Below are positions 9,845 to 52,621 of a DNA stretch of 64,000 nucleotides, in pieces. This DNA comes from Vitis vinifera (taxonomy: Eukaryota > Streptophyta > Magnoliopsida > Vitales > Vitaceae): assembly GCF_030704535.1 (NCBI RefSeq), contig NC_081819.1, forward strand, positions 15,418,501-15,482,500, in the 5' to 3' direction. The notes beneath the pieces are model-generated. The model ran no database searches and was not told the origin of the DNA. It was given only the letters and a program-made list of their open reading frames with translations. The stretch's first letter is position 1. Each line of letters opens with the position of its first letter. The translations under genes were made by a program, and so were the position numbers.

Positions 9845-9849
9845 CTTAT

Positions 9850-9996
9850 TGTAGAACCTCAGACGTTACCAACTCTCCTAAAAGCAATTGTTGTTAGGAA
9901 AGGCACATACCCTAGCCTTATAATGCATTCACCCAAGCGCCCACGGCGAACACAAGGGGAGTTGATGGACGCGGCCAACCCTCCGATCTGCTAACA
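9850..9996 (-). repeat. 147-bp LTR of the composite element, 3' copy
   Basis: In element orientation it begins TGTTAGCAGATC and ends TTCTACA. It contains 'attataaggctag', a TATA-like word. It differs from its partner at 17938-18084 at about 14 positions, all transitions by my count. It is preceded by a polypurine tract, as a 3' LTR should be. Confidence 0.85.
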
Positions 9997-10010
9997 ATCT
10001 CCCCCTCAAC
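9997..10010 (-). other. Polypurine tract of the composite element
   Basis: The - strand reads GTTGAGGGGGAGAT directly before the short 3' LTR. This is the usual Copia plus-strand primer site and orients the short-LTR element on the - strand. Confidence 0.75.
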
Positions 10011-10040
10011 GACACCCCTGGGGTTCGAACCCGTGACCTC

Positions 10041-10053
10041 GGCTCTGATACCA
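10041..10053 (-). other. Primer-binding site (initiator tRNA-Met type)
   Basis: The - strand reads TGGTATCAGAGCC, the standard plant Copia site. It lies two bases after the CA end of the 1,222-bp LTR, but only about 30 bases before the second polypurine tract. It may belong to either the large or the short element. About 10 bases further on, the - strand has GGGTTCGAACCCC, which resembles a tRNA T-arm / box B. Confidence 0.75.
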
Positions 10054-10055
10054 CT

Positions 10056-11277
10056 TGAGAAAACAAAGGCTATGCTTAGTTAAGAAAAACACCCAAAAGG
10101 GGAGTGGGGGCGAGTGAATTGGGTTTTTAAAATATTTTCAATTCACAACAAATTCAAACACAATATAAGCAAAATAAAGAGATAGAGTTTAGAGAAGTCA
10201 AACTCGGGTTTATAGTGGTTCGACACTTCCTTGCCTAGGTCCACTCTCCTCAATCTCTTAACCGAGTGAGGGTTCTACTAACTTGAAGCTTCAACCAAGC
10301 TTTCAATCTTCTTACACTTGGATTCCGACTCCAATGGGCTCTTACACAATCTCTTCAAGATTCAAACCTCTTGAAGGCTTTGACACTAAGATTTTTACAA
10401 GAAATGATCCCTCAGCCTAGCTTAAGGATAGCTCAAATACAAGATAAAGCTAGGATGACACACAAGAGTGCACTAAAGGATATGCAAGTGGTGATTTAAT
10501 GCACTATGAAAGAAATGAGAGCTTTTTGATCAAGAACAGGTAGGTGGGCTATTGAATGCAAGTGTTCTCTTGTCAATAAATGAAGTAGAGCTCTCAATTT
10601 ATAGGCTTCTAAGCTCGGGAGTCAAAAACAGCAAAAGGTAACCTCGTTCGATCGAGCTAGGGGTTGACCGGTTCACTAGCCGTTGGAGCATTTAATGCAA
10701 GACAGGTTACCATTGCCTCGACCAGACCTCGATCAGTAAAAGAATCCCCTAGACCGGGAAGAGAAGGCCACTGGGAGAGAGAGAAACTTTTTGGCCTCCA
10801 TCGATCGGTCCTCGACTAGACGAGCACAACCGGTCGACCGATTCCTCAACTGGTTGAACCGGTTGGCCATAGCCTCGACCAGTTGAGCCTTTTTGGCCCC
10901 GAAAACCTATTTTTTTAATTCCTTTCTTTTCTAACACTTAGGCAAGGTCTTTAGGTTAATTATTAAGCCAATTATAAAACATTTTACCTAAGGTACATTA
11001 GTTAAAAACTTGAGTTTTAATGAAATCAAAGTTTTAAAGAATAAACCGAGTTTTCTAAGTTGCATGAAACGTATGAAAATCCTAAGTGCACTCATGCATT
11101 CATCTTACATTAGTTTCCTATGATCACAAGTCTTCCAAGCATCTCGATCTTGTATCCATTTGGTCATTTGATGAATTTTCGAGTTTATGCCTGAGATTCT
11201 TAACCATTAAACAAATTAGTCACTTAACCATGGTTTGTTATCATCAAAACCCAATTAGGAGAACCCTTGGGCTAACA
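10056..11277 (-). repeat. 1,222-bp LTR of the Sirevirus-like cargo
   Basis: In element orientation it starts TGTTAGCCCAAGG after a polypurine tract and ends TTTTCTCA two bases before a primer-binding site. It has a good TATA region ('agcctataaattgagag', near 10591-10607). Near 10640-10885 it has recurrent CCGGT/CGACC words also found at 13425-13445. Only one copy exists in the element, so the cargo's second LTR is missing. Confidence 0.8.
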
Positions 11278-11292
11278 ATCCCCTCATTTTTG
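11278..11292 (-). other. Polypurine tract of the Sirevirus-like cargo
   Basis: The - strand reads AAAAATGAGGGGAT immediately before the TGTTAG start of the 1,222-bp LTR. This places that LTR as the cargo's 3' LTR. Confidence 0.65.
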
Positions 11293-11580
11293 ATGATGAC
11301 AAACCTTGGTTATCTAGGAGAGAAAAAAAAATCTCCCTCTCAAACCAATCATGGATCAATCAAACAATTTTTAATAGGAAACAATGTAAAACACGAAAAT
11401 TTGAATAGGAAGCAATAGATCATGAAAATATCATATCATATATATATGGAAACCTCACATGTACACACAAGATAGAAATGATAATGATGACAATGACATG
11501 CATGAGGGTCTCCTAGATTTTATATATTTCTCCCCATTTGGCAACATAAAAAAGAAACAGAGAGGGAACTCTAGATAATT

Positions 11581-13065
11581 TCAAGGCTGAGGGGGTGGAG
11601 GAGGAAACACAGAGCAGAGGTAAGCCATCATCTCCTTATGCTGACTCACTTGACGACTCTCAATGTGATCAATGCTCTGTTGGAGATGCTCAAATGTAGC
11701 CTGTTGTTGATCCATACGCTCCTCTATGCGCTCAAATATCTGCTGGAAGTGATCAAATCGAGAAGTGACTCCAGTTTGATACTGATCCATGTGCTCCTTC
11801 ATAGAGTAGAAGCGAGTGTCATGGACTAAAGCAAGCTCCTCTATACGAGTCCCAAGGGAGCTGATCTTAGTTGAGACATCCATCTAAGGCGCATGATCAG
11901 GAGCGTGAGGAGCCTGAGATGGTAGCTCTGTGTGAGAAAACTCGGTAAATGATGGCTGAGATGATGGTCCTATTGTGTAAGAAGGCTCAATCATCATAGG
12001 CTCTGAGAAAGTGGCCTCAACATGAATGCCCTTTGACTGAGGTGGAGGGGAAATGTCAAGCTCGGGCCCTCTCTGCTCAAAATCCCTCTGAGGGTCTAAC
12101 CCATCCTCCATCTCTCTGATCTCGGCCTCCTCCTCTGTTCCGAGATGCATCTGTCCTTGAACCCTAGCCTGTCGCTCAGCTCTCCTAATCTAAGAGCCAT
12201 CGGGTGCCTTCTCGAACTTCATTCGCCCTAAGAACTGCTCATTGTGCGTGTCATAGCTAGTGGGGGCCTCGAAGTCCGTCTCTCTACTCAATTCGACCCT
12301 AGCATCCTTGAATACTCGGGTAAGGAAGCGGTCGTAGGGGAGTACTCGTGTCATGCTCTCAACACAAGATATCATATGCATCATCATCAGATATCCCACG
12401 TGAATCCGTTTCTCGATGAGGATCGAGTCCACAATAAATGCCTCAAGGTAGGAGACCTCGTCTGGATGTCCTCCTCGTGGTAATAAGATGGAGCAAATCA
12501 TGTGATGGAGGACTCGACTAGGCACGGTCAGGTTGTGTGCCGATGGTTTGCCCATTCCCTGGGCATTTGCGAGTCCACATAACCTCTGAACAACCTCTCT
12601 AGGCTCGAATCTCGGCACAGTGGGCCACGCCTTGGCCTCATACACTCGGAGTCCAACTGAAGGAATGTCGAGAATGTGGCAGATACTCTAAGGGCTCAAT
12701 CTGATCTCAACTCCTCTCACTGTGGACAATACTGGTTCTCCAAACCCATAGGTCGCCCGGGAATAAAAAGCCCGCACCAGAGTCAGGAAGATTAGCTCGA
12801 AAATTGTCACAACTGGCAGCCATCCCATTTGACTGAAGAGTCCCTCAAACTCGAAGTGCTAAAGCTGGGAGAAATTAACACTTCTCCCTAGGATGACTTT
12901 CCTTTGGGCGAACTTTTACTTGTATTGCTGATAGTGTTTGACGGAATTGAAGAAGGTCGTGTCATACCTCGCCTTTTGGCGAGCCTCCATCTGCTCAGGT
13001 TGAGATGGCTCAATAGGGCACTTGCCCTGAGCCCTAGAGATGCCCGTCTCTTGCCTTGGAGCCAT
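11581..13065 (-). pseudogene. Third ORF of the Sirevirus-like cargo (plant transposon-associated protein), four in-frame stops
   Basis: A single - strand frame runs from ATG at 13065 to TGA at 11581 (495 codons). It is interrupted by stops at 12916-12918 (TAA), 12688-12690, 12190-12192 and 11884-11886 (all TAG), with no frameshift. The N-terminal part has 'MAPRQETGISRAQGK'; the middle resembles the 'putative plant transposon protein' domain ('ILDIPSVGLRVYEAKAWPTV', 'EAFIVDSILIEKRIHVGYL'). The C-terminus is predicted coiled coil rich in Gln/His/Glu ('SRFDHFQQIFERIEERMDQQ') and ends in a Pro run. It lies between pol and the 3' LTR, the position of the extra or envelope-like ORF of Sireviruses. 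Its function is unknown to me; no signal peptide or membrane segment is evident. Confidence 0.7.
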
Positions 13066-13381
13066 CCAATGAACAGAAATGAGAAGGAGGAGTCCAAAAG
13101 GAGAATGAAATCAAACAAGAGAGAGCAAACACCAACCCGAAGCCCTAGGCGCACGGAGATGAGGCTGAATCCAATCTTGAGGCGTGCGGTCAGAGAGAAA
13201 TCACCCCAAAAAATTGAAACCCTGGGTTTCAAATCAAAACCCTAGCCTCAAGGTGTCCCAAAGTCAAATCCACAACCTGCAATTAGTTCGAAATCTTGCC
13301 AAAACTAACTTCTGGTAGCAGGAATGTGAAGGGTCTTCAAGGTATGGAGGAGAACAGGTGAAAAATGAAGCGCGCATGTGA

Positions 13382-13401
13382 GGGGGGGGGGGGGGGGGGG
13401 G
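13382..13401 (+). repeat. 20-base homopolymeric G run
   Basis: Twenty consecutive G on the + strand (C on the element's coding strand) lie between pol and the third ORF. Such a run can form G-quadruplexes and is prone to length error in assembly. Confidence 0.9.
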
Positions 13402-13680
13402 CTTTTTAAATTCCTAGCCCCAACGAACCGGTCGACTGGTTGGTCAACGATCAACGGTCACGGTCAATGGTCCAATTTTTGCATTTTCTTGTCTCATGAT
13501 CCTTCCCCTGCCCTTTTCAGTTGAAATCCCCAATTTTTTTATGTCTAATGCCAAGAGAATTTTGATTTTTGGTCAAAATTTGACCTTTTTCCTAAGATTA
13601 TTTCTATATGATGCATATGATATGAATTTCATGCAATCATAAGGTATATTCAATCAAGAATTCATCAAGCAATCATTTGA

Positions 13681-16600
13681 TCACAAAGAAATCACCCCTA
13701 GTTGTCTTCTAATATCAACAAATTGCTCTTCACTTAAAGGTTTTATAAAATATCGGCAAATTGATCTTTTATGCTTACAAATTCAAGTGTAATGTCACCC
13801 TTTTGTGCATGGTCTCTAAGAAAATGGTGTCTTATCTCTATATGCTTAGTCCTAGAGTGTTGCACCGAATTTTTTGAAATGTTTATGGCACTAGTGTTAT
13901 CACATTTAATAGGAACATGCTCAAAAATCAAATTGAAATCACTAAGTGTTTGTTTCATCCAAAGGATTTGTGCACAACATAAACCGGCTGCTATGTATTC
14001 CGCTTCCGCCATAGACAAAGCTACCGAATTTTTCTTCTTACTATGCCATGAAACAAGTGAGTATTCTAGGAAATGACAAGTGCCACTAGTGCTTTTCCTC
14101 TCAACTTTACAATTGGCAAAGTTGGCATCCAAGTATCCAATTAATTCAAAGTTATCACCCTTAGGATACCATAGGCTTATGTCCATTGTCCCTTTTAAAT
14201 ATCTAAGAATTCGTTTTACAACACTTAAATGAGATTCTTTAGGACAAGATTGAAATCTAGCACACAAACATACACTATACATGATGTCGGGTCTACTAGT
14301 AGTCAAATATAGCAAAGAACCTATCATGCCTCTATACATAGTTGAGTGGACGGACTTACCTTTGTCATCCATGTCAAGCTTGACGGATGAACTCATTGGA
14401 GTCTTCATTGTTTTGGTTTCCTCCATATTGAACCTTTTGAGGAGATCTCTTATATACTTTGCTTGATTGATGAAGGTTCCTTCCTTTAGTTGCTTGATTT
14501 GAAGTCTAAGGAAGAAGTTAAGTTCTCCCATCATGCTCATTTCAAACTCATATGCATGCATTTAGAAAATTCTTCACAAAGAGAGACATTAGTAGCTCCA
14601 AAAATGATATCATCAACGTATATTTGCACTAAGAGCATGACATTTTCTTTAGTTTTTATGAAAAGAGTTGTGTCAATTTTTCCCATTTTAAAACCCTTTT
14701 TCAAAAGAAATTTACTCAATCTTTCATACCATGCTCTAGGTGCTTGTTTCAAACCATAAAGTGCCTTTTTAAAATTAGGAAAGTTAAAACTTTGAAAATC
14801 GGGTGGTTGTTCAACATATACCTCTTCATTTATAAAGTCATTTAAGAAAACACTTTTTACATCCATTTGATATAAAACAAAGTCTTTAAAACATGCAAAG
14901 GCAAGTAGCATCTTAATGGCTTCCAATCTAGCTACGGGAGCAAAGGTTTCTTCATAATCTATCCCTTCTTCTTGATTAAAACCTTGGGCTACCAATCTTG
15001 CTTTATTCCTTATAATTAAGTCATTTTCATCCATTTTATTTCTAAAGATCCATCTAGTTCCAATAACTCTTTGATTTTGAGGTATTGACACTAATTCCCA
15101 TACTTTACTTCTTTCAAATTGGTTTAACTCTACTTGCATAGCAATTATCCAATTTTCATTAACTAGTGCATTTTTTTATATTTTTAGGTTCAATTTGAGA
15201 GATAAAAGCAAGATTATTGCAAATATTTCTAAGAGATGATCTAGTTCTTAACCCACTAGATGAATTACCTATAATTTGATCTTGTGGGTGGTTGATGACA
15301 AACTTCCAATCTTTAGGGAGGTCTTGGCTTGATTCACCTTGCACTTGTTGAGGAGGAGGTAATGCCAAAGGTGATTTTTCTTTCTTGGGATCCTCTACAA
15401 TTTCTTCTTGTTGCCTTCTATCTTCAATTTGTAATTTTCCTATGAAAGTCTACAAGCCTAAATCATCATCAAATCTCTCTCTTTCTTGGAGAGAATTGTT
15501 AGATTCATAAAAAATAACATGGATGGACTCCTCAACAACCATGGTTCTTTTGTTAAAAACTTCAAAGGCTTTACTTGAAGTTGAGTAACCAAGAAAAATT
15601 CCAACATCCGATTTTGCATCAAAATTTCCAAGATTGTCTTTGGTGTTTAATATGAAGCATTTGCACCCAAAGACTTTGAAATAGCTAATGTTGGGTTTCT
15701 TGTTTTTCCAAAGCTTATAGGGAGTTTTCTTAAGAATAGGCCTTAATAAAATTCTATTTAAAACATAACAAGAAGTGTTAACCGCTTCGGCCCAAAAGTA
15801 TTTTGGTAAATTGTTTTCATTTAGCATGGTTCTAGCCATTTCTTGAAGAGTTCTATTTTTCCTTTCAACTACCCCATTTTGTTGAGGAGTTCTAGGAGCC
15901 GAAAAATTGTGGTTAATACTATGCTCATTGCAATAGTCTTCAAAATCAATATTTTCAAATTCTCTTCCATGATCACTTCTTATACAAGTAATTGTAAAAC
16001 CCTTTTCATTTTGAACCTTATTGCAAAACTTTGAAAACTCATAAAAGGCTTCATTATTTTGACTTAAAAATAAGACCCAAGTGTATCTAGAGAAGTCATT
16101 ACAATAACAAAAGCATAAGATTTTCCTCCAAGGCTTGGTGTCTTAGAGGGACCAAATAAATCCATATGCAACAATTCAAGAGGCCTAGTTGTTGAAATGA
16201 AATTTTTGTTTTTAAAAGAGTTTTTGATTTGCTTTCCCATTTGACAAGCTTCACAAACTTTGTCTTTTTGAAAATTTATTTTGGGAAAGCCTTTAACAAG
16301 TTCATCTTTGTTAAGTTGGGAAATGAGGTCCACGTTAGCATGTCCCAACCTCCTATGCCACAACTAACTTTGATCATGCATGCTTGAAAAGCATCTATCA
16401 TGGCCATCGTATTTTGAAATATTTATTGCATAAACATTATCACATCTATGGCCCATGAAGATGGTTTTATCATTTTGAATATCTTTAATGATGCAATGAG
16501 ATGCTTCAAAAATCACTTTAAAACCTTTGTCACAAAGTTGACTTATGCTCAAAAGATTATGTTTTAAACCATCCATTAATAAAACACTTTCAATAAGAGA

Positions 16601-16744
16601 GGATGTGCCATTACCAATGTTGCCTTGACCAATGATCCTTTCTTTTGAATTGTCTCCAAAGGTAACGTATCCTCCCTTTCTCTTTGTAAGGAAAGCAAAC
16701 TTGGATTCATCCCCGGTCATGTGTCTTGAGCACCCATTATCCAA
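13681..16744 (-). pseudogene. Copia pol of the cargo: protease, integrase, reverse transcriptase, RNase H
   Basis: Domains in order on the - strand: protease and pre-integrase linker (16744-16364), zinc-binding WHRRLGH...CEACQ and integrase core (16363-15450), reverse transcriptase with YVDD (15139-14537), RNase H with AEAEYIAA and RTKHIEIRHHF (14561-13743), final stop at 13681. Breaks seen: a catalytic Asp-Asn-Gly where the family has Asp-Ser/Thr-Gly; a TAG at 16364-16366 just before WHRRLGH; frame changes near 16100, between 15450 and 15140, near 14550 and near 13747. The phrases match the Sirevirus (SIRE/Maximus) lineage of Copia. It is non-functional. Confidence 0.88.
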
Positions 16745-17937
16745 GAATCACTTATCCTTCTTTGATCCCTACAAAATAAAATTTAAGTTGATTTAGGTAC
16801 TCATATCTTTTTGGGTCCTTGAGGGTTAGTGACCTTGGATTTCTCAACCCATACCTTTTTAGCTTTAGCATTTGAAATCTTTTGAGAACCATTTCTTAAG
16901 GGACATGTACTACTAATGTGCCCTCCTCTTCCACAAAAGTTACAAGTGGTAGAAGAACTTGCACTTGCGGATTCTTTTACAAAGTAGTTTTAAAAATACT
17001 TTTGATTTTTTGAAGATTTGAATCCTAGCCCTTGTTTGTCAAAGACGCATTTTTGGCTAGCTAAGATCATTTCAAAAGATTTTTGTCCACAAGAGAAAAT
17101 TGAAAGAGAGGAGGTTAACCATTCATTTTTCTTTTTCAAAATCTCATTTTCACTCCTCAAAATCTCATTTTCTTTTTCAAGATGAGTTTTAGATATTTCA
17201 ACAATTGAAAATTTTCTTTCACTTCTTCAAGTTCCTTTTCAAGTTCTTGAATTTTCTTTTTAAGAGAATTATTTTTCAAACTAAGTTTTTCAAAATCCTC
17301 ATATAATTCTCCAAAAACATCATGCATATCTTCATCACTAAAGTTAGAGTTTACCTCATCAAGATCATCTATTGCCATGAAGCACATGTTTGCCACTTCC
17401 TTCTCATTTTCTTCTTCGAAGGATTCTTCACTTTCACTCCAAGTGGCCATCATTGCCTTCTTCATTCTTCTCTTGGCTTCACTCTTGTAGAGAGGACAAT
17501 CATATTTAATGTGTCCCGGTTTTTTGTACTTGAAGCATATCAAATCTCTTTTCTCTTCCCATTTCTCCTTGTCACCATGGGACGAGGATTCCTTTTTAGA
17601 AGGATCTCTTCTAGAGGTGAACTTCCTTCCTCTAAACCTTTCACCTCTCATGTATTTGTTGAGTTTTCTTGTGATGAGGACTAAATCATCATCTTCATCA
17701 CTTGGTTTTTCCTTTTCAACATCTTCTTCTTCCTTGGTTGTAGCTTTGAGGGCTATGCTCTTCTTCTTTTTGTCTTCACCCTCTTGTAGCTTCTTTGTCA
17801 AATTGATCTCATATGTCATTAATGACCCTATAAGCTCTTCCATAGGTAGCTTAGTCAAGTCTTTTGCTTCTTGAATTGCGGTGACCTTGGTGTGCCACTT
17901 TGACGGGAAAGACCTCAATATCTTCATCACCTTCTCT
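16745..17937 (-). pseudogene. Copia gag of the cargo, N-terminus missing
   Basis: The - strand frame enters directly from the short LTR and reads into the middle of Gag ('EKVMKILRSFPSKWHTKV', 'LTKLPMEELIGSLMTYE'), so about the first half of the usual capsid region is absent. It then has a Lys/Glu-rich linker and a zinc knuckle near 17496-17535 in which the second Cys is Tyr (CFKYKKPGH...C), and an acidic/coiled-coil part up to a frame break near 17157. A second, intact CX2CX4HX4C knuckle lies at 16903-16944. Two knuckles and the 'EVANMCFMAIDDLDEV' stretch fit Sirevirus Gag. Confidence 0.82.
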
Positions 17938-18084
17938 TGTAGGACCTCAGGCGCTACCAACTCTCCTAAAAGCAATTGTTGTTAGGAAAGACGCATATCC
18001 TAGCCTTATAGTACATTCACCCAAGTGCCCACGGTGAACACAAGGGGAGTTGATGGATGCAGCCAACCCTCCGATCTGTCAACA
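17938..18084 (-). repeat. 147-bp LTR of the composite element, 5' copy
   Basis: In element orientation it begins TGTTGACAGATC and ends CCTACA. The next bases (AGAGAAGGTGATG) are already gag codons, so neither primer-binding site nor leader follows it. It contains 'actataaggctagg', a TATA-like word. CTTAT follows on the outer side. Confidence 0.85.
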
Positions 18085-19200
18085 CTTATAAAAATAAGAA
18101 AATTTATTATTAATGTCTTTATAAATATTTTAGGTGGAAAAATATTATGAGATGGAGATGACTTGTGAGAACTATACATGATATATGGAGATGTGAGGAA
18201 GAGTAGGTCGAAGACATTTAGTGGAATAAGGGAGCTGAGCTTACTTCATACTTTATAATATAGATATAAGAAGTGGAGAACATATATACAATGTTTGATG
18301 GCTTAATAATTTTATCTGGTTTCTACCCCCAGTAATATGTCTAGATCAAGAAATTAATACTTTGAGAAAGATCAATGATCTAATTTGAATTAATACACGT
18401 CATAGAAATCTCAAAATTGGTATGCCTTTTGCAATGATATGCCTATTAACTTTTATTCAAATGTTATCTAATAAATTTGCCTAAATCAAGATTAATCAAT
18501 GAATATATATAATGAGAGATCTCATCAAATTATATCTAATAAATTAGTATTATGAGATCTAACTCAACTATATATAAATTGTTCATGATTTAAGAACCAA
18601 ATATTAACTCATGTAGTTATATTAAAATAATTTTTATTTTTTCATTGATGCCATATGTTTTTATGAAGCTTATATACCATGATGTCTATTTTATTCAAAT
18701 TATCTTGTTTACAATTTTTGTGAGAAGCCACTTTCAACAATATATTTAAGAATTCCGATTCTAAAGTATGAGAGTCTAAAATTAATTCTTCTTTTAGGAT
18801 CTTAATAGAAAAAAGAGTTTAGCAAGTTATAAATAACCTACTAAATAGTCTATGAAAAAATAATTAAGAAAAGTAGGGTCCATTTTAAACCTTTAACTTT
18901 GAGAATAGATTTTTGACACCATTGATATATTTTTTCTATTGAAACGAGTTTTAAGAAATTTGTTCTCGAAGTAGGTTATTTTAAAAAAAAAATTTGATGT
19001 ATTTTAAGGTGTTTTTTTTAAAAATATTTTGATAAATAATTAAAAATATGAGAATACTTTGATAATTTCTATACAATTGACCTTTATGGAGAATTTAAGT
19101 AAATAATTAGGGTTTGTTTGTCATCTGTTTTCCCCAAGTGGATTTATGTTTTTGAGAACTAAGAAATGTTTCAAAAATATTATCCAAATGAACTATTAAA
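18085..19200 (+). repeat. Paralogous block X, copy 1
   Basis: It aligns in inverted orientation with 35370-36296 and, in part, 44405-45430. Shared landmarks are 'aatatttataaagac', the stretch 'ttagcaagttataaataacc' and 'gaagaattaattttagac'. It directly continues block Y once the retroelement at 9850-18084 is removed. AT-rich; no gene visible. Confidence 0.65.
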
Positions 19201-20099: not shown

Positions 20100-20690
20100 C
20101 TCTTTGGAACCAATTAACAAACTCGCTCCCGCTTTCTCTCACTTTCCCAAGAAAATTCAATCATATACTTTGGAAGTTGTTGATTTCACATTCAACAATT
20201 TCTTGGTCTTTTTGGTCATCAGTCCGGTAAAATTCTCTGAACTCCTCTTCCTTTTTCTCTGGAGATCCATTTCGAGTAGTTCATTTGCTTTGTTTCTTGT
20301 TGAAGAATCATATATGTTTCTCTATCACTTTCTCTCACTTTCGGTCTCGCTTCCTCCAGAAAATTAAATTCAACTTTGCTAGCTTTCAAGAATCTGATAA
20401 CTTGGGTGTTGTTGATTTCATATTCAGCAATTTCTTCTCTGTGTTGTTCATCAGCGATCAGGTACAGATTCTTTAATCCTTTGTTTCTTTTTCTTGATAT
20501 CCTCGTCAAGTACAATTTCTTTCTCAGTTTCTTGGTCAAGAATCTGAAACTCAAATTCACTTGGAAGTTGTTAATTTCTGTTTTCTAATCAGATTCCCTT
20601 TTCACTTGGAAGTTGTTTCTTTCAAATTAATCCAACATGTATGCTAATTTCAGGTACATTCCCCGATTGAATCCTTTTCATCTCAACTCT
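20100..20690 (+). repeat. Leader-module array of the second type I gene
   Basis: Two full modules (about 20120-20300 and 20340-20500) and a partial third (20510-20660) carry the shared core 'gttgatttca'. The inverted counterpart is 52030-52610. Confidence 0.55.
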
Positions 20691-20700
20691 CATCTTCTTT

Positions 20701-21486
20701 ATGAAATTTTTGTTCTTTCTGATCTTAAACTTAATTATAAATGCATCATTACTGCTCAGCTGGCCCAACTGCCGACCACCCACATCAACACCGGACCCAA
20801 CTCCAGCACAGGATCCCAACCCAACTCCAACATGGCTCAGCTGTCATTACTGCTCTCGGTTCTTTATTAGCAACCTAAATGTTCGAGTATGTCTCTCTCC
20901 ATATATCAGAAATTAATTGGAGCATTTTATGTTTTACATTTTTCTTTTATGTTTCTTTGATGAATGTTCTCCTTGTAGGGTGTTGTTGTACAAGCCAGGG
21001 AACCCAATACTAGCTACTATGTGGCTGATTACATGTATGTTTTTTAATGTGCTTGGTTGGGAATAAAGAAAAAGATCGATTCTTAATAATTTGAATTGTT
21101 ACAGATAGGGTAGCTTTATTTTTGTGGATTTTAATCACAACATAAGGCTACATTTGTGTTTGTTCATGGATGCAGTACTAACACTTACCGTCCAGACGAT
21201 GGATTAATAATTTCTGAATGGATTACAGCTGAAAATGGGGAGAATAATTTGGCCTTGACCCGTATCTACTGTGACAGATGCAGACTACCTGCTGGCTGGA
21301 AAGTCGTAAGAAATTAATTTGGCCTTGTTGCTGTGAATTTTCTGTTTTATATGTTGGCAAGCTCTAATCTCAAGCTCAATATCTCGTCACATGCAGCTTC
21401 AGCGGAGCCAAACTCACCCTATTGTCGATATAGGCCACGTTTTGCTGCCAGTTACTCCTCCTGCTGCTTCTCCTTCTCAGCCATAA
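20701..21486 (+). CDS. Type I Yippee-like gene with altered start (four exons)
   Basis: Exons 20701-20886, 20979-21034, 21176-21305 and 21397-21486 join with GT-AG introns, phases 0, 2, 0, to 153 residues. The exons encode the Pro-rich 'STPDPTPAQDPNPTPTW', the first CxxC (CHYC), the second (YCDRC) with PAGWKV, and a last exon with GHVLLPV. The usual start 'ATGCATGGG' is replaced by 'atgcatcattactgc', which is out of frame with the domain, so I use the upstream in-frame ATG at 20701; its N-terminus is hydrophobic and unlike the paralogues. The inverted paralogue (51156-51936) has a cleaner start. It may be a gene with a changed N-terminus or an early pseudogene. Confidence 0.5.
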
Positions 21487-22455
21487 TGGCTCAAGGACGT
21501 GGCTAATGGCTGATGGCTCTCCATATATACAGTGGATGTGGCTCGTGGCTGATGGCTCTCCATATATAGTCTCTGTTACTTAAGAATCTCAATACAGTAG
21601 TTATCCAATGCAATGTACTTGTGATGTAATACCAATTGCTAGCTAGTACCAGCTCTGTTTTCAGAAGCTTTCATGTTGGGTTGAATAAATTCATGAGAAT
21701 TCTATGTCGTAATGTGTAAATGACTTCTTTTTCTTCATGGTATCCAAGTTGCAATGCCCAAAAGAAAATGGTTGAAAATTTTTTGAGCTCTTCCATTACT
21801 ACCATTTACTCTTATGGTGGTAAAGAATACCAGACATTGCTTTTGCCAAATGTCGTCATCGACACATTTTATTCTATTTCATGTTTGAATCACAAGATTT
21901 GATATATTATAGAAGATAAGGTTAAGTATAAATGACATATTTTCTATTTTGAAACGTTTAAATTATCTTTTAATGACATATATTATAGAGAGAGAATCGT
22001 AATTTCCAAGAGAGTGTAAATTATTTTCACAAACCTAACTTGTCCAAATTCATAACTCAATGAAAGGATCATAGAATATTTAATGGAATTGGTATGAGGG
22101 CATATATTTTTTTCTTATTGTACTTGATGGATATTTTAATAAATTATTATGACACATCCTTAAAATAGAAAAATATAAAAATTATAAAATATCTTATGTC
22201 TTATAAAATCTAATATAACAAAATATTTGACCAGTGTTACAAAAGAAAAATAATATTAAGGTAATTTAAAATATTATTCACCATCCAACCAAGGGGTTAA
22301 AATTTTAATTTACATTCTTTGAGGTTTGAATTACACATTATGTCTAAATAATATTATTTTATTAATTTATTTTAAATATAATAAAAACATGTGATGGCAA
22401 AGTGGCAATATGAAGGTTGTTGAGTGCAATGTCAATCTTCCATAACTGTCTAATG
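21487..22455 (+). other. Downstream flank of the second type I gene
   Basis: This spacer is nearly repeated, inverted, at 50181-51155. Early on it has a duplicated phrase 'ggctgatggctctccatata' (about 21505 and 21550). From 21900 it is AT-rich. No gene is supported; the small open frame at 21720 is the repeat tail also present at 1-120. Confidence 0.5.
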
Positions 22456-22462
22456 TATATAA
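22456..22462 (+). promoter_or_regulatory. TATA box of the type I gene at 23129
   Basis: TATATAA in 'atgtatataatcatcac', matching the inverted copy at 50174-50180. Confidence 0.6.
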
Positions 22463-22489
22463 TCATCACTAATCCTTTTTCACATTCAT

Positions 22490-23060
22490 AACCACCTCTC
22501 TTTCAAACCAATTAACAAACTCTCGCTTTCTCTCACTTTCCCAAGAAAATTCAATCTTAATACTTTGGAAGTTGTTGATTTCACATTCAACAGTTTCTTG
22601 GTCTTTTTGGTCATCATTCTGGTAAAATTCTCTTAACTCCTTTCTTCTTTCTTTCTTTATCTGGACATCCATTTCAAGTAGTTCATTTGCTTTGTTTCAT
22701 ATTGAAGAATCATAACTGTTTCTCTATCACTTTCGGTCTCAATTTCTCCAGAAAATTAAATTCAAGTTTGCTAGCTTTCAAGAATCTGATAACTTGGGTG
22801 TTGTTGATTTCACATTCAGCAATTTCTTCTCAGTGTTGTTCATCAGCGATCAGGTACAGATTCTTTAATCCTTTGTTACTTTTTCTTGATATCCTTATCA
22901 AGTACATTTTCTCTCTCAGTTTCTTGGTCAAGAATCTGAAACTGAATTTCAATCGGAAGTTGTTAATTTCTTTTTTCTGATCAGATTCCCTTTTCACTTG
23001 GAAGTTGTTGCTTTCAAATCAATCCAACATGTCTGCTCGTTTCAGGTACATTTCCATTTT
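22490..23060 (+). repeat. Leader-module array of the third type I gene
   Basis: Two full modules (22510-22690 and 22730-22900) and a partial third (to about 22990) lie between the TATA box and the coding start. The array is nearly identical to 49620-50170 inverted. Possible splice steps are 'tctggtaaaatt' near 22620 and 'atcaggtacaga' near 22850. Confidence 0.55.
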
Positions 23061-23128
23061 GAATCCTTCTCATCTCAGTTATCATCTTTTTGATAATATT
23101 TTAGTTCTTTCCCTTAAACTCAATCTAA

Positions 23129-23899
23129 ATGCATGGGTCAAGGAAAGTGACAGATTGGCCGGAAACACTGGAACCAGCCATACCAACACCGGAACCAACA
23201 GAAAATCCCGACGAATGGATCACCTGTAATCACTGCTCCCAACGCTTAATTAGCAGCCAAAATGTTCGAGTATGTCTCTCCCCATATATCAGAAATTAAT
23301 TGGAGTATTTTATGTTTTACATTTTTCTTTTATGTTTCTTTGATGAATGTTCTCCTTGTAGGGTGTTGTTGTACAAGCCAGGGATCCCAGTGCTAGCTAC
23401 CATGTGGCTGAGGACGTGTATGTTTTTCATTAATTATTATTATTTCCAGACACTTGCTAGTAGGTTTCTCAATGTGATTGGCTGAGAATTAAGAAAAGAT
23501 TCTTATTAATTTGAATTGTTACAGATAGAGTAGGTTTATTTTTGTGTATTTTGATCATAATACTAAGTCTAGGTTTGTTATTTTGTTCATGGATGCAGTG
23601 CCAATATATTCCATCTAGACGATGTGGTACATCTAGGTTATAAAAGGATTAGAGCTGAGAATCAGGAGACTGATTTGACTTTGGCCCGAGTCTATTGTTG
23701 TACATGCAGACTACCTGCTGGCTGGAAAGTTGTAAGAAATGAATGCCATTCCCTTGTTGCTGTGGATTTTCAGTTTTATCTCACATGTAGCTCAATATCT
23801 CACATGCAGCTTCAGCGGAGCGAAAGCCACCCTATTGTCCATGTAGACGACTTTTTGCTGTATGTTCCTCCTCCTCCTCTTCCTCCTTCTGAGTCATAA
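23129..23899 (+). CDS. Type I Yippee-like protein, 139 aa (four exons)
   Basis: Exons 23129-23269, 23362-23417, 23599-23731 and 23810-23899 have clean GT-AG introns, phases 0, 2, 0. The ATG lies in 'aaATGCATGGGTCAAGG', the motif shared with paralogues. Residues 10-30 are Pro/Glu-rich without the nine-residue repeat. Cysteines are C33-x2-C36 and C99/C100/C102, the latter before PAGWKV; the last exon carries an IVHVDDFLL strand and a Pro-rich end. The four-Cys plan and GW motif fit a Yippee-like zinc fold. Intron 3 (78 nt) has no stop in frame, so its retention would simply add 26 residues. All parts are open; I judge it likely functional. Its inverted copy at 48996-49533 lacks exon 1. Confidence 0.68.
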
Positions 23900-24277
23900 T
23901 GGTCTATTGACATGGCTCATGGCTCATGTCTCTCTGTTACTAAGAATCTCAATGCAGTTATCCAATGTAAAAACTTTAGGAATACCTAGGATGAGATGAG
24001 AAGTTTTGTTGCTGTCATGGCATCTTTATAATGTCTTGGGTATTTTGATAGTTTGTAATATTTCAAATACTCATTGTAGCTACTTTTGGACTTGGTTAAT
24101 ACTCCACTGTAGTCAAGTTTAGGTGAATGTTCTGATTGAAACTTAGCAATAATATTGAAACATACCATTGAAATTTACCATAATTTTTCATACACAAAAT
24201 TCATTGTTTAATTCCACTTGATAATTTCGAATGAATAAATTTTTTTAACTTCTTTTGCGCTAACTATTTATCTCTCT

Positions 24278-24321
<44 letters not shown>

Positions 24322-34699: not shown

Positions 34700-36296
34700 A
34701 CTTGGAATATCAAAGATTACCAGCTACTCTTCTTGATGGATCCTCCAGTATCATTCAGACAAATTAAGAAAAGAAAGGTTTGCAGATTGCAACTTCGATA
34801 TAAAAGATTCCGGGTGAGAATAATCCTTAATTTGAGGAGGCTGTTATAGGTTACTCACCAATCATGTCATCCTTAATTTTAGTCTAATTATTATTAAATA
34901 AGGCTAGTAGAATAATCCAAGGAGATTTTACCTTTCTCATTTAAAATTTTGCTCTTATTAAAGGGTACGAGTCTAGGATGTGTTTGGAAGTCAAGAATTA
35001 GAATTACCAAACCTTTTGAATTAATTTGTCTGCTACTTTTTAAAAAAAAAATCATAATATTTAAAAAGTTTTATTAAATACTTCATAAAAGGATATAACT
35101 AGATAATGTTTGGAAATTTTTACATGATAGCACATAAAAACTTTTTCAAAATTTTTTAATTTAGGAAATTTTAAGAAGACAAGGTAGATTAGAGTTCTTA
35201 TACTCCCGATATGAGATTATACTTTTTAAAAATAAAAATAATAATAATAATAATAATAATAATGATAATTTGAAATGATTAAATTATTTTTTAAAGAGAA
35301 TTAATATGGCTTTATGAGAGTGAGTCAAAATTTTCAAGAGAGTGCAAATTACTTCGTAAAATAGGGGCTTGATCATCCTAGCTTGTCCCAAGTCATATAA
35401 TACTTCCAGGATTTGGTATGAGGGTATAACTTATAATACTTTTTCCTTTTTTCTTTTTTCTTTTTTTTTGGTGGGGGAGGGGGTTTGGGTTACAAAACTA
35501 TTTTATATTCTAAATAGCAAAAAATATTCTCGAAGTAAAAGGTTTAAAAACGACTCTACTTTTCCTAATTATTTTTTCATAGATTATTTAGTAGGTTATT
35601 TATAACTTGCTAAACTCTTTTTTGTATTAAGATCCTAAAAGAAGAATTAATTTTAGACTCTCATAATTTAGAATTGGAATTCTTAAATATATTGTTGAAA
35701 GTGGCTTCTCACAAAAATTGTAAACAAGATAATTTGAAGAAAATAGACATCATGGTGTATAAGCTTCATAAAAACATATTGCATCAATGAAAAAACCATT
35801 AATTATTTTAATATAAGTACATGAGTTTATAATAGGTACTTCAATCATGAACAATTTATATATAGTTGAGTTAGATCTCAAAATACAAATTTATTTGATA
35901 TAATTTAAGGAGATCTCTCATTATATTCATTGTAAAATGCATACCTCATATAATGTGTTATTTTTCAAGATTTAAGATTTCTATGACATGTATTAATTCA
36001 AATTAGATCATTGATCTTTCTCAGAGTATTAATTCCTTGGTGCAGATATATTACAAAGGATAGAAACCGGATATCATTATTAAGTCATCAAACATTGTAT
36101 GTATGTTCTCCACTTATTATTTCTATATTATGAAGTATGATCAGCTCCTTCACTCCACTGAATGTCTCCGACTTATTCATTCTCACATCTTTATATATCA
36201 CATATAGTTTTCACAAACTCATCTTCATCTTATAATATTTTCCCACCTAAAATATTTATAAAGACATTAACAATAAATTTTCTTATTTTTATAAGC
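34700..36296 (-). repeat. Type II upstream flank and paralogous block X, copy 2 (empty retroelement site)
   Basis: Bases 34770-35360 match the upstream flank of the other type II genes. From 35370 to 36296 the sequence is the inverted copy of 18085-19200. The single CTTAT target of the 8.2-kb retroelement is at 36292-36296 (as ATAAG on +). A TAA-type trinucleotide run is at about 35238-35265. No gene. Confidence 0.65.
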
Positions 36297-44404: not shown

Positions 44405-45430
44405 TTTTGAAGAAAATAGAGATCATAGTACATAAGCTTCATAAATGCATATTGCATCATTGAATAATTTTTTTTTATCATTTTAATATAAGTACATGAG
44501 TTTAAAATGGTACTTCAATTATCAATAGTTTACAATTGAATTAGATCTCATCATATATAGATCTTTTAGATCCCGTACTTTAATGAGATCTCTCATTATA
44601 TTCATTGATTAATCTTAATTAACGGTGTAAAAATTTAGAGGATATTTCATTAAGGAATTCTATTTAGAGAATATTTAAATAAAAGAATTTAACTAATAAC
44701 GGTTATTTTTGTAAAATCTTCTGCCCCATTCCTTCCAAAAGTTAATCTCTTTAATCACTTTATAATAGATTAGTAAAAATTTGTTTTGCCACAAATTAAT
44801 AAATAAATAACATTAAAAGAAAAAAATAATAATGAGGAAGGAACACTCCTTTTTGAATAATAGAGTGATTGGAGCTCTCAAATATTATGCTAGAGACTAT
44901 CCCATTAAAATACAACATGATAGTTTTAAGATTGAACCGTAATAAAGAAATAACATTTGAATAAAAGTTAATAACCATATCAGTCCAAAATGCATACCTC
45001 ATATAATGTGTTATGTTTCAAGATTTTGAGATTTCATGATGACATCTATTAATTCAAATGAGATCTCAAATGATTAATTCCTTCGTGCAAACATATTATA
45101 GAGGATAAAAACTAGATATAATTATTAAGTCCTAAAACATCCTATGTTTCAACACTTTTTAGATCTATATCTTAAAGTATGAAGTATGATTAGTTCCTTA
45201 CTCCACCGAATGTTTCCGACCTACTCATCGTCACATTTTTATCCATTACGTATAGTCTTCATAAATTCATCTCCATCCGGTAATATTTTCTCATTTGAAA
45301 TATTTATAAAGATATTTTTAATAATTTTTTATCTTATAAGAAAATATAATATCACAATGATCAATTCCCAATGCACAAACAATTCAAAAAATTGATAATA
45401 GAGTTCAAATACTTTTTCTTTTTTGGTGTT
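44405..45430 (-). repeat. Paralogous block X, copy 3 (second empty retroelement site)
   Basis: Matches 35730-36290 (same orientation) and 18085-18700 (inverted) in patches, more diverged. It holds a single CTTAT at 45336-45340 (ATAAG on +) with flanks like those beside the 8.2-kb element. No gene. Confidence 0.58.
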
Positions 45431-48470: not shown

Positions 48471-48995
48471 TTATTATTATACTATTGTAATTACACCATG
48501 GATGTCATAAACATCCAAAGTATGAAATTGATGAACAGTTAATATTTTTTTTAAATATAGAAGTGATTTGGGAAAAAAGTTTGCCTTAGTTGACGTATAA
48601 GATTAAAGAATCTTTAGAGAGAGATAAATAGTTAGCGCAAAAGGAGTTAAAAAAAATTATTCATTCGAAATTATCAAGTGGAATTAAACAATGAATTTTG
48701 TGTATGAAAAATGATGGTAAATTTCAATGGTATGCTTCAATATTATTGCGAAGTTTCAATCAGAATATTCACCTAAACTTGACTACAGTGGAGTATTAAC
48801 CAAGTCCAAAAGTAGCTACAAGGAGTATTTGAAATATTACAAACTATCAAAATACCCAAGACATTATAAAGATGCCATGACAGCAACAAAACTTCTCATC
48901 TCATCCTAGGTATTCCTAAAGTTTTTACATTGGATAACTGCATTGAGATTCTTAGTAACAGAGAGACATGAGCCATGAGCCATGTCAATAGACCA
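48471..48995. other. Downstream flank of the exon-1-less type I copy
   Basis: Inverted copy of 23900-24500. No gene is visible. Confidence 0.5.
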
Positions 48996-49533
48996 TTATG
49001 ACTCAGAAGGAGGAAGAGGAGGAGGAGGAACATACAGCAAAAAGTCGTCTACATGGACAATAGGGTGGCTTTCGCTCCGCTGAAGCTGCATGTGAGATAT
49101 TGAGCTGCATGTGAGATAAAACTGAAAATCCACAGCAACAAGGGAATGGCATTCATTTCTTACAACTTTCCAGCCAGCAGGTAGTCTGCATGTACAACAA
49201 TAGACTCGGGCCAAAGTCAAATCAGTCTCCTGATTCTCAGCTCTAATCCTTTTATAACCTAGATGTACCACATCGTCTAGATGGAATATATTGGCACTGC
49301 ATCCATGAACAAAATAACAAACCTAGACTTAGTATTATGATCAAAATACACAAAAATAAACCTACTCTATCTGTAACAATTCAAATTAATAAGAATCTTT
49401 TCTTAATTCTCAGCCAATCACATTGAGAAACCTACTAGCAAGTGTCTGGAAATAATAATAATTAATGAAAAACATACACGTCCTCAGCCACATGGTAGCT
49501 AGCACTGGGATCCCTGGCTTGTACAACAACACC
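48996..49533 (-). pseudogene. Type I Yippee-like copy lacking exon 1
   Basis: Exons 2-4 are present on the - strand (49533-49478, 49296-49164, 49085-48996), with the same lengths and splice sites as 23362-23899; exons 3-4 encode the same protein. Exon 1 is absent: near 49604 the sequence jumps from 'ctgctcgttt' (before exon 1) to 'tgtattttatgttt' (intron 1), deleting about 260 bp with the start codon and the first CxxC. Intron 3 (78 nt) is again open in frame. The promoter and leader array are intact upstream, so a transcript may exist, but half of the zinc site is missing. Confidence 0.75.
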
Positions 49534-49619
49534 CTACAAGGAGAACATTCATCAAAGAAACATAAAAGAAAAATGTGAAACATAAAATACACCATAAACG
49601 AGCAGACATGTTGGATTAA

Positions 49620-50180
49620 TTTGAAAGCAACAACTTCCCAGTGAAAAGGGAATCTGATCAGAAAAAAGAAATTAACAACTTCCGATTGAAATTCAGTTTC
49701 AGATTCTTGACCAAGAAACTGAGAGAGAAAATGTACTTGATAAGGATATCAAGAAAAAGTAACAAAGGATTAAAGAATCTGTACCTGATCGCTGATGAAC
49801 AACACTGAGAAGAAATTGCTGAATGTGAAATCAACAACATCCAAGTTATCAGATTCTTGAAAGCTAGCAAACTTGAATTTAATTTTCTGGAGAAATTGAG
49901 ACCGAAAGTGATAGAGAAACAGTTATGATTCTTCAATATGAAACAAAGCAAATGAACTACTTGAAATGGATGTCCAGATAAAGAAAGAAAGAAGAAAGGA
50001 GTTAAGAGAATTTTACCAGCATGATGACCAAAAAGACCAACAAATTGTTGAATGTGAAATCAACAACTTCCAAAGTATAAGATTGAATTTTCTTGGGAAA
50101 GTGAGAGAAAGCGAGAGTTTGTTAATTGGTTTGAAGAGAGGTGGTTATGAATGTGAAAGAGGATTAGTGATGATTATATA
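49620..50180 (-). promoter_or_regulatory. Promoter and leader array of the exon-1-less copy
   Basis: TATATAA is at 50174-50180 (complement), followed by two full modules and a partial third down to 49620. It is the inverted copy of 22456-23040. Confidence 0.55.
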
Positions 50181-51155
50181 CATTAGACAGTTATGGAAGA
50201 TTGACATTGCACTCAACAACCTTCATATTGCCACCTTGCCATAACATGTTTTTATTATATTTAAAATAAATTAATAAAATAATATTATTTAGACATAATG
50301 TGTAATTCAAACCTCAAAGAATGTAAATTAAAATTTTAACCCCTTGGTTGGATGGTGAATAATATTTTAAATTACCTTAATATTATTTTTCTTTTGTAAC
50401 ACTGATCAAATATTTTGTTATATTAGATTTTATAAGACATAAGATATTTTATAATTTTTATATTTTTCTATTTTAAGGATGTGTCATAATAATTTATTAA
50501 AATATCCATCAAGTACAATAAGAAAAAAATATATGCCCTCATACCAATTCCATTAAATATTCTATGATCCTTTCATTGAGTTATGAATTTGGACAAGTTA
50601 GGTTTGTGAAAATAATTTACACTCTCTTGGAAATTACGATTCTCTCTCTATAATATGTCATTAAAAGATAATTTAAACGTTTCAAAATAGAAAATATGTC
50701 ATTTATACTTAACCTTATCTTCTATAATATATCAAATCTTGTGATTCAAACATGAAATAGAATAAAATGTGTCAATGACGACATTTGGCAAAAGCAATGT
50801 CTGTAGCTTTGGTATTCTTTACCACCATAAGAGTAAATGGTAGTAATGGAAGAGCTCAAAAAATTTTCAACCATTTTCTTTTGGGCATTGCAACTTGGAT
50901 ACCATGAAGAAAAAGAAGTCATTTACACATTACGACATAGAATTCTCATGAATTTATTCAACCCAACATGAAAGCTTCTGAAAACAGAGCTGGTACTAGC
51001 TAGCAATTGGTATTACATCACAAGTACATTGCATTGGATAACTACTGTATTGAGATTCTTAAGTAACAGAGACTATATATGGAGAGCCATCAGCCACGAG
51101 CCACATCCACTGTATATATGGAGAGCCATCAGCCATTAGCCACGTCCTTGAGCCA
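50181..51155 (-). other. Spacer between the two - strand type I copies
   Basis: Inverted copy of 21487-22455, including the duplicated 'ggagagccatcagcca' phrase near 51080 and 51120. No gene is visible. Confidence 0.5.
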
Positions 51156-51936
51156 TTATGGCTGAGAAGGAGAAGCAGCAGGAGGAGTAACTGGCAGCAA
51201 AACATGGCCTATATCGACAATAGGGTGAGTTTGGCTCCGCTGAAGCTGCATGTGACGAGATATTGAGCTTGAGATTAGAGCTTGCCAACATATAAAACAG
51301 AAAATTCACAGCAACAAGGCCAAATTAATTTCTTACGACTTTCCACCCAGCAGGTAGTCTGCATCTGTCACAGTAGATACGGGTCAAGGCCAAATTATTC
51401 TCCCCATTTTCAGCTGTAATCCATTCAGAAATTATTAATCCATCGTCTGGACGGTAAGTGTTAGTACTGCATCCATGAACAAACACAAACCGAGCCTTAT
51501 GTTGTGATTAAAATCCACAAAAATAAAGCTACTCTATCTGTAACAATTCAAATTAATAAGAGTCGATCTTTTTCTTTATCCTCAACCAAGCACATTGAAA
51601 AACCTACTAGCAAGTGTAATAATAAATGAAAAACATACATGTAATCAGCCACATAGTAGCTAGTATTGGGTTCCCTGGCTTGTACAACAACACCCTACAA
51701 GGAGAACATTCATCAAAGAAACATAAAAGAAAAATGTAAAACATAAAATGCTCCAATTAATTTCTGATATATGGAGAGAGACATACTCGAACATTTAGGT
51801 TGCTAATAAAGAACCGAGAGCAGTAATGACAGCTGAGCCATGTTGGAGTTGGGTTGGGATCCTGTGCTGGAGTTGGGTCCGGTGTGGATGTGGTTGGTCT
51901 TGATGTTTTCGGAACTATCACTTTCCTTGACCCCAT
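51156..51936 (-). CDS. Type I Yippee-like protein, 141 aa (four exons)
   Basis: Exons on the - strand are 51936-51787, 51694-51639, 51466-51337 and 51245-51156, with GT-AG introns, phases 0, 2, 0. It starts MGSRKVIVPK from the second of two overlapping ATGs (51940 and 51936). The first ATG, homologous to the start used at 23129, is put out of frame by an extra G in 'ATGCATGGGGTC' and would give about 45 residues. The protein has a Pro-rich stretch, C36-x2-C39 (CHYC), C101-x2-C104 before PAGWKV, and a last exon with GHVLLPV. Splice sites and frames are intact. It is the better-preserved sister of 20701-21486. Confidence 0.65.
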
Positions 51937-52029
51937 GCATTTATAATTAAGTTCAAGATCAGAAAGAACAAAAAATTTATAAAGAAGATGAGAATTGAGA
52001 TGAAGAGGATTCAATCAGGGAATGTACCA

Positions 52030-52621
52030 GAAATTAGCATACATGTTGGATTAATTTGAAAGAAACAGCTTCCAAGTGAAAAGGGAATCTGATCAGAAAA
52101 CAGAAATTAACAACTTCCAAGTGAATTTGAGTTTCAGATTCTTGACCAAGAAACTGAGAAAGAAATTGTACTTGACGAGGATATCAAGAAAAAGAAACAA
52201 AGGATTAAAGAATCTGTACCTGATCGCTGATGAACAACACTGAGAAGAAATTGCTGAATGTGAAATCAACAACACCCAAGTTATCAGATTCTTGAAAGCT
52301 AGCAAACTTGAATTTAATTTTCTGGAGAAAGTAAGTTCGAAGGTGAGAGAAAGTGATAGAGAAACATATATGATTCTTCAACAAGAAACAAAGCAAATGA
52401 ACTACTCGAAATGGATCTCCAGAGAAAAAGGAAGAGAGGAGTTCAGAGAATTTTACCGGATTGATGACCAAAAAGACCAAGAAATTGTTGAATGTGAAAT
52501 CAACAACTTCCAAAGTATATGATTGAATTTTCTTGGGAAAGTGAGAGAAAGCGGGAGTTTGTTAATTGGTTCCAAAGAGAGACAGTTGTGAATGTGGAAG
52601 AGGAAGAGTGATGCTTATATA
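52030..52621 (-). promoter_or_regulatory. Promoter and leader array of the type I gene at 51936
   Basis: TATATAA is at 52615-52621 (complement) in 'gagtatataagcatcac'. Two full modules and a partial one follow towards 52030. It is the inverted copy of 20058-20690. Confidence 0.58.

Follow-up and report, generated by a model that had tools for sequence, protein, structure and literature searches.

The DNA analysed here is a 64-kb stretch of the Vitis vinifera genome, hereafter "the window", and coordinates given without a contig name are positions within it. At 9850-18084 the window holds a unit of ~8.2 kb, read on the minus strand, that combines a complete element of the TRIM type (terminal-repeat retrotransposon in miniature) with an insert from a Sirevirus, a retrotransposon of the Copia group. 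In minus-strand order the unit consists of a CTTAT target-site duplication (TSD; 18085-18089), the 5' TRIM long terminal repeat (LTR; 18084-17938), the Sirevirus internal region (17937-11278), a Sirevirus LTR (11277-10056), the TRIM internal domain (10055-9997), the 3' TRIM LTR (9996-9850) and a second CTTAT (9845-9849). The Sirevirus insert of 7,882 bp, made up of a truncated gag, pol, ORF3, a polypurine tract (PPT) and a single LTR of 1,222 bp, sits exactly between the TRIM 5' LTR and the TRIM internal domain. The latter is complete and comprises a spacer, AG (10054-10055), a primer-binding site (PBS), TGGTATCAGAGC (10042-10053), and a PPT, AGGGGGAG (9999-10006), plus AT.

The content of the Sirevirus internal region was established by domain searches against Pfam and by collinearity with a relative on C12 described below. 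From its 5' side it contains a gag remnant (17157-17975; PF14223, profile positions 124-168 of 172, under the gathering cut-off), whose open reading frame (ORF) is fused in frame with the final bases of the TRIM LTR. This is followed by a Pol_BBD domain (16364-16744), the SH3_retrovirus domain of pol (15450-15839), the RVT_2 reverse transcriptase and the part downstream of it, split over two frames (13743-15139), and ORF3 (12190-12645), which scores 44.8 bits against PF20167 (putative plant transposon protein; gathering cut-off 45). Between ORF3 and the Sirevirus LTR lies an ORF of 100 aa with no Pfam match (11581-11883).

The two TRIM LTRs, each 147 bp long and bounded by TG and CA, are identical at 133 of 147 positions (E about 5e-55), and no third copy was found elsewhere in the window at E 1e-3. 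All 14 differences between them are transitions, and at each of these 14 sites the majority state of the family is C or G (up to 63 other family LTR copies were counted). Each difference is thus decay of a single LTR away from the family majority, and the pair started out alike when it was inserted. A paralogous empty site lies on the opposite (minus) strand at 36291-36295, where the joined flanks align across the insertion point with one CTTAT (right flank 96.9% identical over 64 bp, left flank 91.7% over 48 bp). A second, more diverged empty site was observed at 45336-45340, also on the minus strand (79% over 63 bp and 90% over 30 bp). A preliminary description of this DNA had reported the 147-bp repeats with their CTTAT duplications and inner 1,222-bp LTR, both empty sites, and junctions at 10054-10056 and 17937-17938. 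The repeats and the inner LTR are confirmed by alignment, by the TSD and by the C12 relative, the empty sites by the flank alignments, and the junction positions agree with those that we obtained, 10055/10056 and 17937/17938 (2 bp ambiguous).

Apart from this unit, the window contains long inverted, near-identical blocks at 20245-24281 and 48614-52436 (96-99% over arms of 0.3-1 kb), which form a recently duplicated cluster at ~20-24 kb and ~48-52 kb.

The TRIM and Sirevirus parents

We searched the genome (495.6 Mb in 21 contigs) with the 147-bp LTR and scored the best 40 of 254 candidates. The 65 resulting matches collapse into 40 loci, all of which were read. Twenty-six of them have the structure LTR-internal-LTR, several being truncated or carrying small additional pieces, and four are solo LTRs. 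At two loci, on C12 and C6, the LTR is followed by foreign sequence, and the remaining eight show no detectable TRIM LTR ahead of their internal domain and 3' LTR, with L022 and L056 among them retaining the final bases of the TRIM LTR at their start. Adjacent matches start 206 bp apart (147 + 59) in 16 of 25 pairs. The internal domain of the short copies measures 59 bp, running from AGTGGTATCAGAGCC to GGGGGAGAT; apart from point differences it matches 10055-9997 of the window (85-97% in the copies). The chimera therefore holds a complete TRIM. Exact 5-bp TSDs were found at 13 of the 40 loci by a script requiring both ends to be intact. As in TRIMs generally, the LTRs are shorter than 250 bp, with TG..CA ends and a 5-bp TSD, and the internal domain of the parent is short and non-coding with a PBS and a PPT; the window copy departs from the short form by its 7,882 extra bp. 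The preliminary description had proposed a search with 9850-9996, in which short copies with an internal domain of ~60 bp would reveal a TRIM parent. This parent is found in the 26 short copies, which, with the four solo LTRs, also place the repeat without the cargo elsewhere in the genome.

Translated copies of the TRIM occur in the protein collection. P0121 translates the internal domain and PBS directly into the TRIM LTR, both matches of one short-peptide search are translated TRIM copies, and P0123 and P0124, among five matches of a second such search, read from the TRIM domain into the LTR. In a collection of viral contigs, pattern and protein scans gave no matches; a further pattern scan returned 11 stretches with the PBS 16-mer. 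The stretch TGGTATCAGAGCC...GGTTCGAACCC was considered as a copied tRNA and this was dropped, as only the 12-bp PBS fits. At 10022-10031, and at the equivalent positions of other TRIM domains, GGTTCGAACC resembles the B box of tRNA genes. Six TRIM loci at C16:14.81-15.36 Mb (L018, L019 and L036-L039) have similar flanks, with ATG or ATGT before and AGAGGTTGAG or AAAGGTTGAG after, and apparently represent a segmental duplication carrying one TRIM insertion.

The parent of the insert is represented by a fuller Sirevirus copy on C12 that is flanked on either side by one and the same LTR (K = 0.034 for the pair) and runs collinear with the cargo. Because this relative carries the sequence of 10056-11277 at both ends, the embedded 1,222-bp segment is an LTR. 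The 5' end of the C12 Sirevirus reads LTR...TTTTCTCA-ATTGG-TATCAGAGC-TAGACTTC...gag. In comparison, the cargo is without 5' LTR, PBS, 5' untranslated region (UTR) and the beginning of gag; measured on the C12 Sirevirus, the break falls ~565 bp past its LTR end. Thirty-five Sirevirus loci were listed and nine ordinary ones were read. In all nine, LTR and PBS continue into the Sirevirus 5' UTR, and the 147-bp repeat is not a regular part of the element; the possibility, raised at the outset, that it is an ordinary component of this Sirevirus family thus found no support in these loci.

The marks of Sireviruses given in the cited part of the published description are an LTR/PBS block of the form CA-A[T/G]TGG-TATCAGAGC, an AT/TG attachment site, an inverted repeat around the terminal PPT, and a C-rich signal at a mean of 21 bp from the LTR end (PMC2829016). 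The LTR/PBS block is present in C12 and in the nine ordinary loci, one of which has ATTAG. The embedded LTR has an AT/TG attachment site and a 22/24 inverted repeat around the PPT, and its C-rich tract stops 43 bp short of the LTR end. On the other hand, the published PPT octamer, AGGGGGAG, is absent from the cargo and occurs in the TRIM part only. The PPT of C12 likewise departs from this octamer, and two published Sireviruses also vary in it, according to the same part of that work (PMC2829016). Judged by its LTR and PBS structure the cargo is a Sirevirus, its reverse transcriptase being known here from the RVT_2 match.

Joins at the primer-binding site and their recurrence

At the 3' junction of the window unit, the Sirevirus LTR end TTTTCTCA is followed by AGTGGTATCAGAGCCGAGG, which is the TRIM form. 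The Sirevirus has LTR-ATTGG-TATCAGAGC-TAGAC as its own junction and the TRIM has LTR-AGTGG-TATCAGAGC-CGAGG; the window couples the Sirevirus LTR end to the TRIM version (AGTGG). The embedded LTR is preceded by a PPT and followed by a PBS, which makes it both a 3' and a 5' LTR, an arrangement that simple insertion does not yield.

At the 5' junction, the TRIM sequence ...CCTACA-AG is followed by gag sequence beginning AGAAGG. We used this junction as a query (positions 1-140) and scored the best 40 of 542 candidates. Matches to gag stop at query positions 68-69 and most matches to the TRIM start at 69-71, with a few exceptions at 66, 67, 73, 74 and 86; the starts at 69-71 indicate that the TRIM part reaches the PBS edge. 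The unbroken gag of C12 has CCTACAA seven bases ahead of the break, a heptamer also present at the TRIM end, and we estimate the chance of such a 7-base match within about 10 bp at ~0.1%. A protein search with gag, for which 120 of 548 matches were listed, showed that intact gag reads GLEALGKTYKESEKVMKIL, and none of these 120 has LTR-coded residues ahead of EKVMKIL. The closest named gag proteins among them point to Vitis as the host. The two short-peptide searches returned no protein spanning the join of gag and LTR.

Among the best 40 of the 542 candidates the 5' junction (1-140) was spanned in the window only, and a spanning copy would rank high. A 3'-junction query, for which the best 40 of 970 candidates were scored, found the same AGTGG form at one place besides the window, C16:18477052, which is rearranged. 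The other 8-kb copies with both junctions that the preliminary description had envisaged were therefore not seen, and there is no evidence among the scored places that this exact chimera multiplied. Its proposal that a small LTR element acquired most of a Copia element as cargo is upheld by the TRIM and Sirevirus parents; what it missed is that the join lies at the PBS edge and that such joins recur.

Five of the 40 places scored with the 3'-junction query span a junction of this kind: the window, C16:18477052, C19:4912322 (hereafter C19), C16:16473352 and C15:11913029. The 40 best TRIM loci supplied six more composites, C12, C7, C16:5.5M, C1, C6 and C17, which brings the total to 11, the window and ten further TRIM-Copia composites. 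The majority of their joins fall within the block formed by LTR end and PBS. In the window, C16:18477052, C19, C16:16473352, C15:11913029, C7 and C1, a foreign LTR end is followed by the PBS, the TRIM internal domain and the TRIM LTR. In C6, C16:5.5M and C1, the TRIM LTR is followed by the PBS and the internal sequence of the partner. C1 carries both joins and is the reciprocal product; we read its outer parts as one Copia element, and a second LTR for this partner was searched for and not found. C12 has the TRIM LTR plus AG joined to a whole Sirevirus, and C17 joins the interior of a Sirevirus LTR to the inside of the TRIM domain at matching GTCGAGG sequences and carries an inverted TRIM at its opposite end.

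An unselected count is available from the TRIM loci themselves. The internal domain is present at 34 of the 40, and at 28 of these it is preceded by the TRIM's own LTR end. In four of the other six, namely the window, C19, C1 and C7, an LTR end of foreign origin is joined on at the PBS block; C16:5.5M starts at the PBS, and in C17 the join falls inside the domain. The spacer is the partner's ATTGG in C19, C16:16473352, C15:11913029 and C7.

In a tree of LTR tails, C16:16473352 is placed beside C6 (0.988), with C15:11913029 in the same clade (0.994), and the window is placed beside C16:18477052 (0.848), apart from the C6 clade. C7 and C16:5.5M have a different LTR family. The partners thus include two or more Sirevirus LTR lineages, another Sirevirus-like LTR family (C7 and C16:5.5M) and a third LTR-like end (C1). 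C6, C16:16473352 and C15:11913029 could be one chimeric lineage moving as a unit, and the window and C16:18477052, both with AGTGG, may descend from one event.

Matching 5-bp duplications at the outermost ends were found in five of the 11 units: the window (CTTAT), C12 (CTTTT; TRIM LTR on the left, Sirevirus LTR on the right), C7 (ATTTT; partner LTR on the left, TRIM LTR on the right), C16:5.5M (GTTTT; the left end is the PBS, beginning with TG like an LTR) and C17 (GTATC). By our estimate a 5-bp match at fixed ends has a chance of ~0.0016 each at 34% GC, a value raised by the T-rich composition of several of these duplications. The comparison covered these five units, C19 and C16:18477052; C1 and C6 each have one end missing, and of C16:16473352 and C15:11913029 1.0 and 0.9 kb were read. 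A shared outer duplication argues that the parts of a unit did not arrive by two separate insertions. Chromosomal recombination between separate copies was also considered, and it is rejected because the outer TSDs match in five units.

Some loci have the appearance of irregular reverse-transcription products. The C16:5.5M unit (C16:5504472-5508334; L055, L063 and L064), with the TRIM PBS TGGTATCAG... as its left end and GTTTT at both outer ends, is apparently an integrated unfinished cDNA. The C17 unit (C17:18433819-18438680; L027, L035 and L070) is a fold-back product, with Sirevirus pol and a partial LTR between inverted TRIM LTR ends and with GTATC duplications. Another fold-back lies at C5:20404707 (L022 and L065), where an inverted TRIM LTR end adjoining a TRIM is joined to ATTGGTATCAGAGCTTGGG..., seemingly the 5' UTR of another element. 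This locus (L022), an inverted TRIM LTR piece plus a foreign PBS, was excluded from the count of composites because its structure is ambiguous.

A probable template switch between co-packaged RNAs and its alternatives

We consider it likely that the window unit is one retrotransposition product of co-packaged TRIM RNA and Sirevirus RNA, formed by a template switch and inserted by a single integration. The TRIM shares a 12-mer consisting of the PPT and AT/TG with Sireviruses and has the same kind of PBS, so that one enzyme set could serve both. During normal reverse transcription the minus strand stops at the PBS once the template past the PBS is gone. In the order of strand transfers that we infer, the tRNA-primed minus strand and the first jump would proceed normally on the TRIM RNA, and the TRIM 3' LTR, PPT and 59-bp internal domain would be copied as far as the PBS. 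At this end of the TRIM template the strand would pair with the matching PBS of the Sirevirus RNA and copy U5-R, and a normal R-to-R jump to the 3' end of the Sirevirus RNA would then allow U3, PPT, ORF3, pol and part of gag to be copied. The TRIM plus-strand strong-stop DNA (LTR plus AG) would be joined in gag, near the CCTACAA common to gag and the TRIM end. The resulting cDNA, flanked by TRIM LTRs, would be inserted by integrase as a single piece with duplication of CTTAT. In C7, the plus strand would have begun at the inner PPT, leaving the partner LTR on the left. The window unit has the marks of a complex insertion made by template switching, namely an internal LTR, a TSD at the outer ends and outer LTRs of one event.

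Several observations count against this scheme. All features of the window unit would fit a switch at the PBS except that the TRIM plus strand is joined in gag instead of at the Sirevirus PBS, which calls for an additional irregular step or for a deletion afterwards. In a context-matched clock, the LTR pair has 14 C>T-type changes compared to 9.4-10.3 predicted from the cargo branch (P 0.09-0.16), and no other changes compared to 3-8 expected; these figures leave room for a cargo that may be slightly younger. A TSD was sought and not found at C16:18477052 and at C19, where the stretch read offered no candidate for the left end. C6, C16:16473352 and C15:11913029 may share one event, as may C7 and C16:5.5M, and the independent origins may thus be fewer than the loci. 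Finally, switching at the RNA level is indistinguishable from the joining of extrachromosomal cDNAs.

An origin by way of extrachromosomal DNA is the alternative that survives best, and we regard it as rather improbable. Here, a one-LTR circle or a broken linear Sirevirus cDNA would have been recombined or end-joined with TRIM cDNA before integration, or a circle would have entered a resident TRIM at the shared PBS, with a subsequent gag-side deletion. A one-LTR circle opened at the PBS gives precisely the order gag-pol-PPT-LTR-PBS, and C12, where the TRIM LTR plus AG abuts the first base of the Sirevirus 5' LTR within a common TSD, resembles end-joined cDNAs. However, entry into a resident TRIM cannot yield C7, C16:5.5M or C17, which have a partner LTR, a PBS and inverted LTRs, respectively, as ends inside one TSD, and the shared PBS block is only about 12-16 bp long.

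In a scenario of nested insertion, an entire Sirevirus would have landed in a resident TRIM, at the edge of LTR and PBS, and subsequently lost its 5' LTR and 5' gag. Such nesting would preserve the outer CTTAT and the empty site, and the AGTGG to the right of the Sirevirus LTR is readable as a 5-bp TSD. It is nevertheless very unlikely, as it requires one exact spot of a 353-bp target at several loci (four of the six foreign joins among the 34 domain loci, and three more from the search for that junction), and the partner's ATTGG in the four composites that carry it places the switch inside the PBS, which is impossible by insertion. Least credible is the descent of the short TRIM from an ancestral large element by deletion, as Gao et al. 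(2016) proposed for rice OsajLTRA10/OsajRetroS10: they do list a large TRIM-related grape element, VviLTRA5 (PMC4717578), but the 5' junction of our large form is unique (best 40 of 542 scored) while the TRIM is abundant, relatives of the cargo exist with LTRs of their own, and different TRIM copies carry different partners.

Comparison with known composite elements

Complex LTR insertions arising from template switching have already been described by Sabot and Schulman (2007; PMC1950507). Their complexes have in common with the window unit a third, internal LTR, a 5-bp TSD on either flank, outer LTRs derived from a single source and an explanation by a jump between two packaged RNAs. They differ in that close relatives were involved and the jump occurred at R, whereas the window combines a miniature element with a large element of another family, with the proposed switch at the PBS edge. 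The long Veju TRIMs of wheat (VejuL) also retained their LTRs while acquiring internal sequence through abnormal template switching, as the cited parts of these sources have it (PMC13317346, PMC1950507). In the corresponding part of the review, the gain of VejuL is unknown DNA (PMC13317346), in contrast to the identifiable Sirevirus with its own LTR in the window. Tandem Cassandra arrays consist of TRIMs strung together, and template switching is among the origins suggested for them; unlike the window unit, they join a single family with itself, with no Copia partner in the part cited here (PMC7215508).

Beyond the works cited, no PBS swap between TRIM and Copia elements was found described at the level of titles and the beginnings of abstracts. 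Primer-site swaps that recur between a single TRIM family and several Copia lineages look new, and they point to the mobilisers of TRIMs. Gao et al. give large relatives for only 11 of 289 TRIM subfamilies (PMC4717578). A join made during reverse transcription means that the TRIM RNA and the partner RNA were in the same particle, so that each composite would record a partner. In addition, reverse transcription seems to have been caught at particular stages in some composites, such as the unit ending at the PBS and the unit with inverted ends, and these could be counted in any genome.

The large TRIM-related elements listed by Gao et al. (2016), including OsajLTRA10 and VviLTRA5, resemble the window unit in being coding, 3.4-8.5 kb long and equipped with TRIM-sized LTRs (PMC4717578). 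In the large rice element, a 25-bp motif made up of LTR end and PBS flanks the breakpoint on both sides; its printed sequence gives G or T at the very base by which the spacers of the grape TRIM (AGTGG) and Sirevirus (ATTGG) differ (PMC4717578). Gao et al. took the large form as the ancestor of the TRIM and the motif as a sign of deletion, with no internal LTR reported in the sections cited (PMC4717578). By analogy with the grape composites, the rice pattern would be what a PBS switch leaves behind. We suggest, tentatively, that PBS swapping might be a general route by which miniature and autonomous Copia elements exchange parts, the TRIM minus strand halted at its own PBS going on to that of the partner as template, that published "autonomous parents" of TRIMs (for example rice OsajLTRA10) might be such chimeras, and that junction partners might reveal the packagers. 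Should the rice element and other "TRIM parents" bear this signature as well, the direction of descent now accepted for them would need review.

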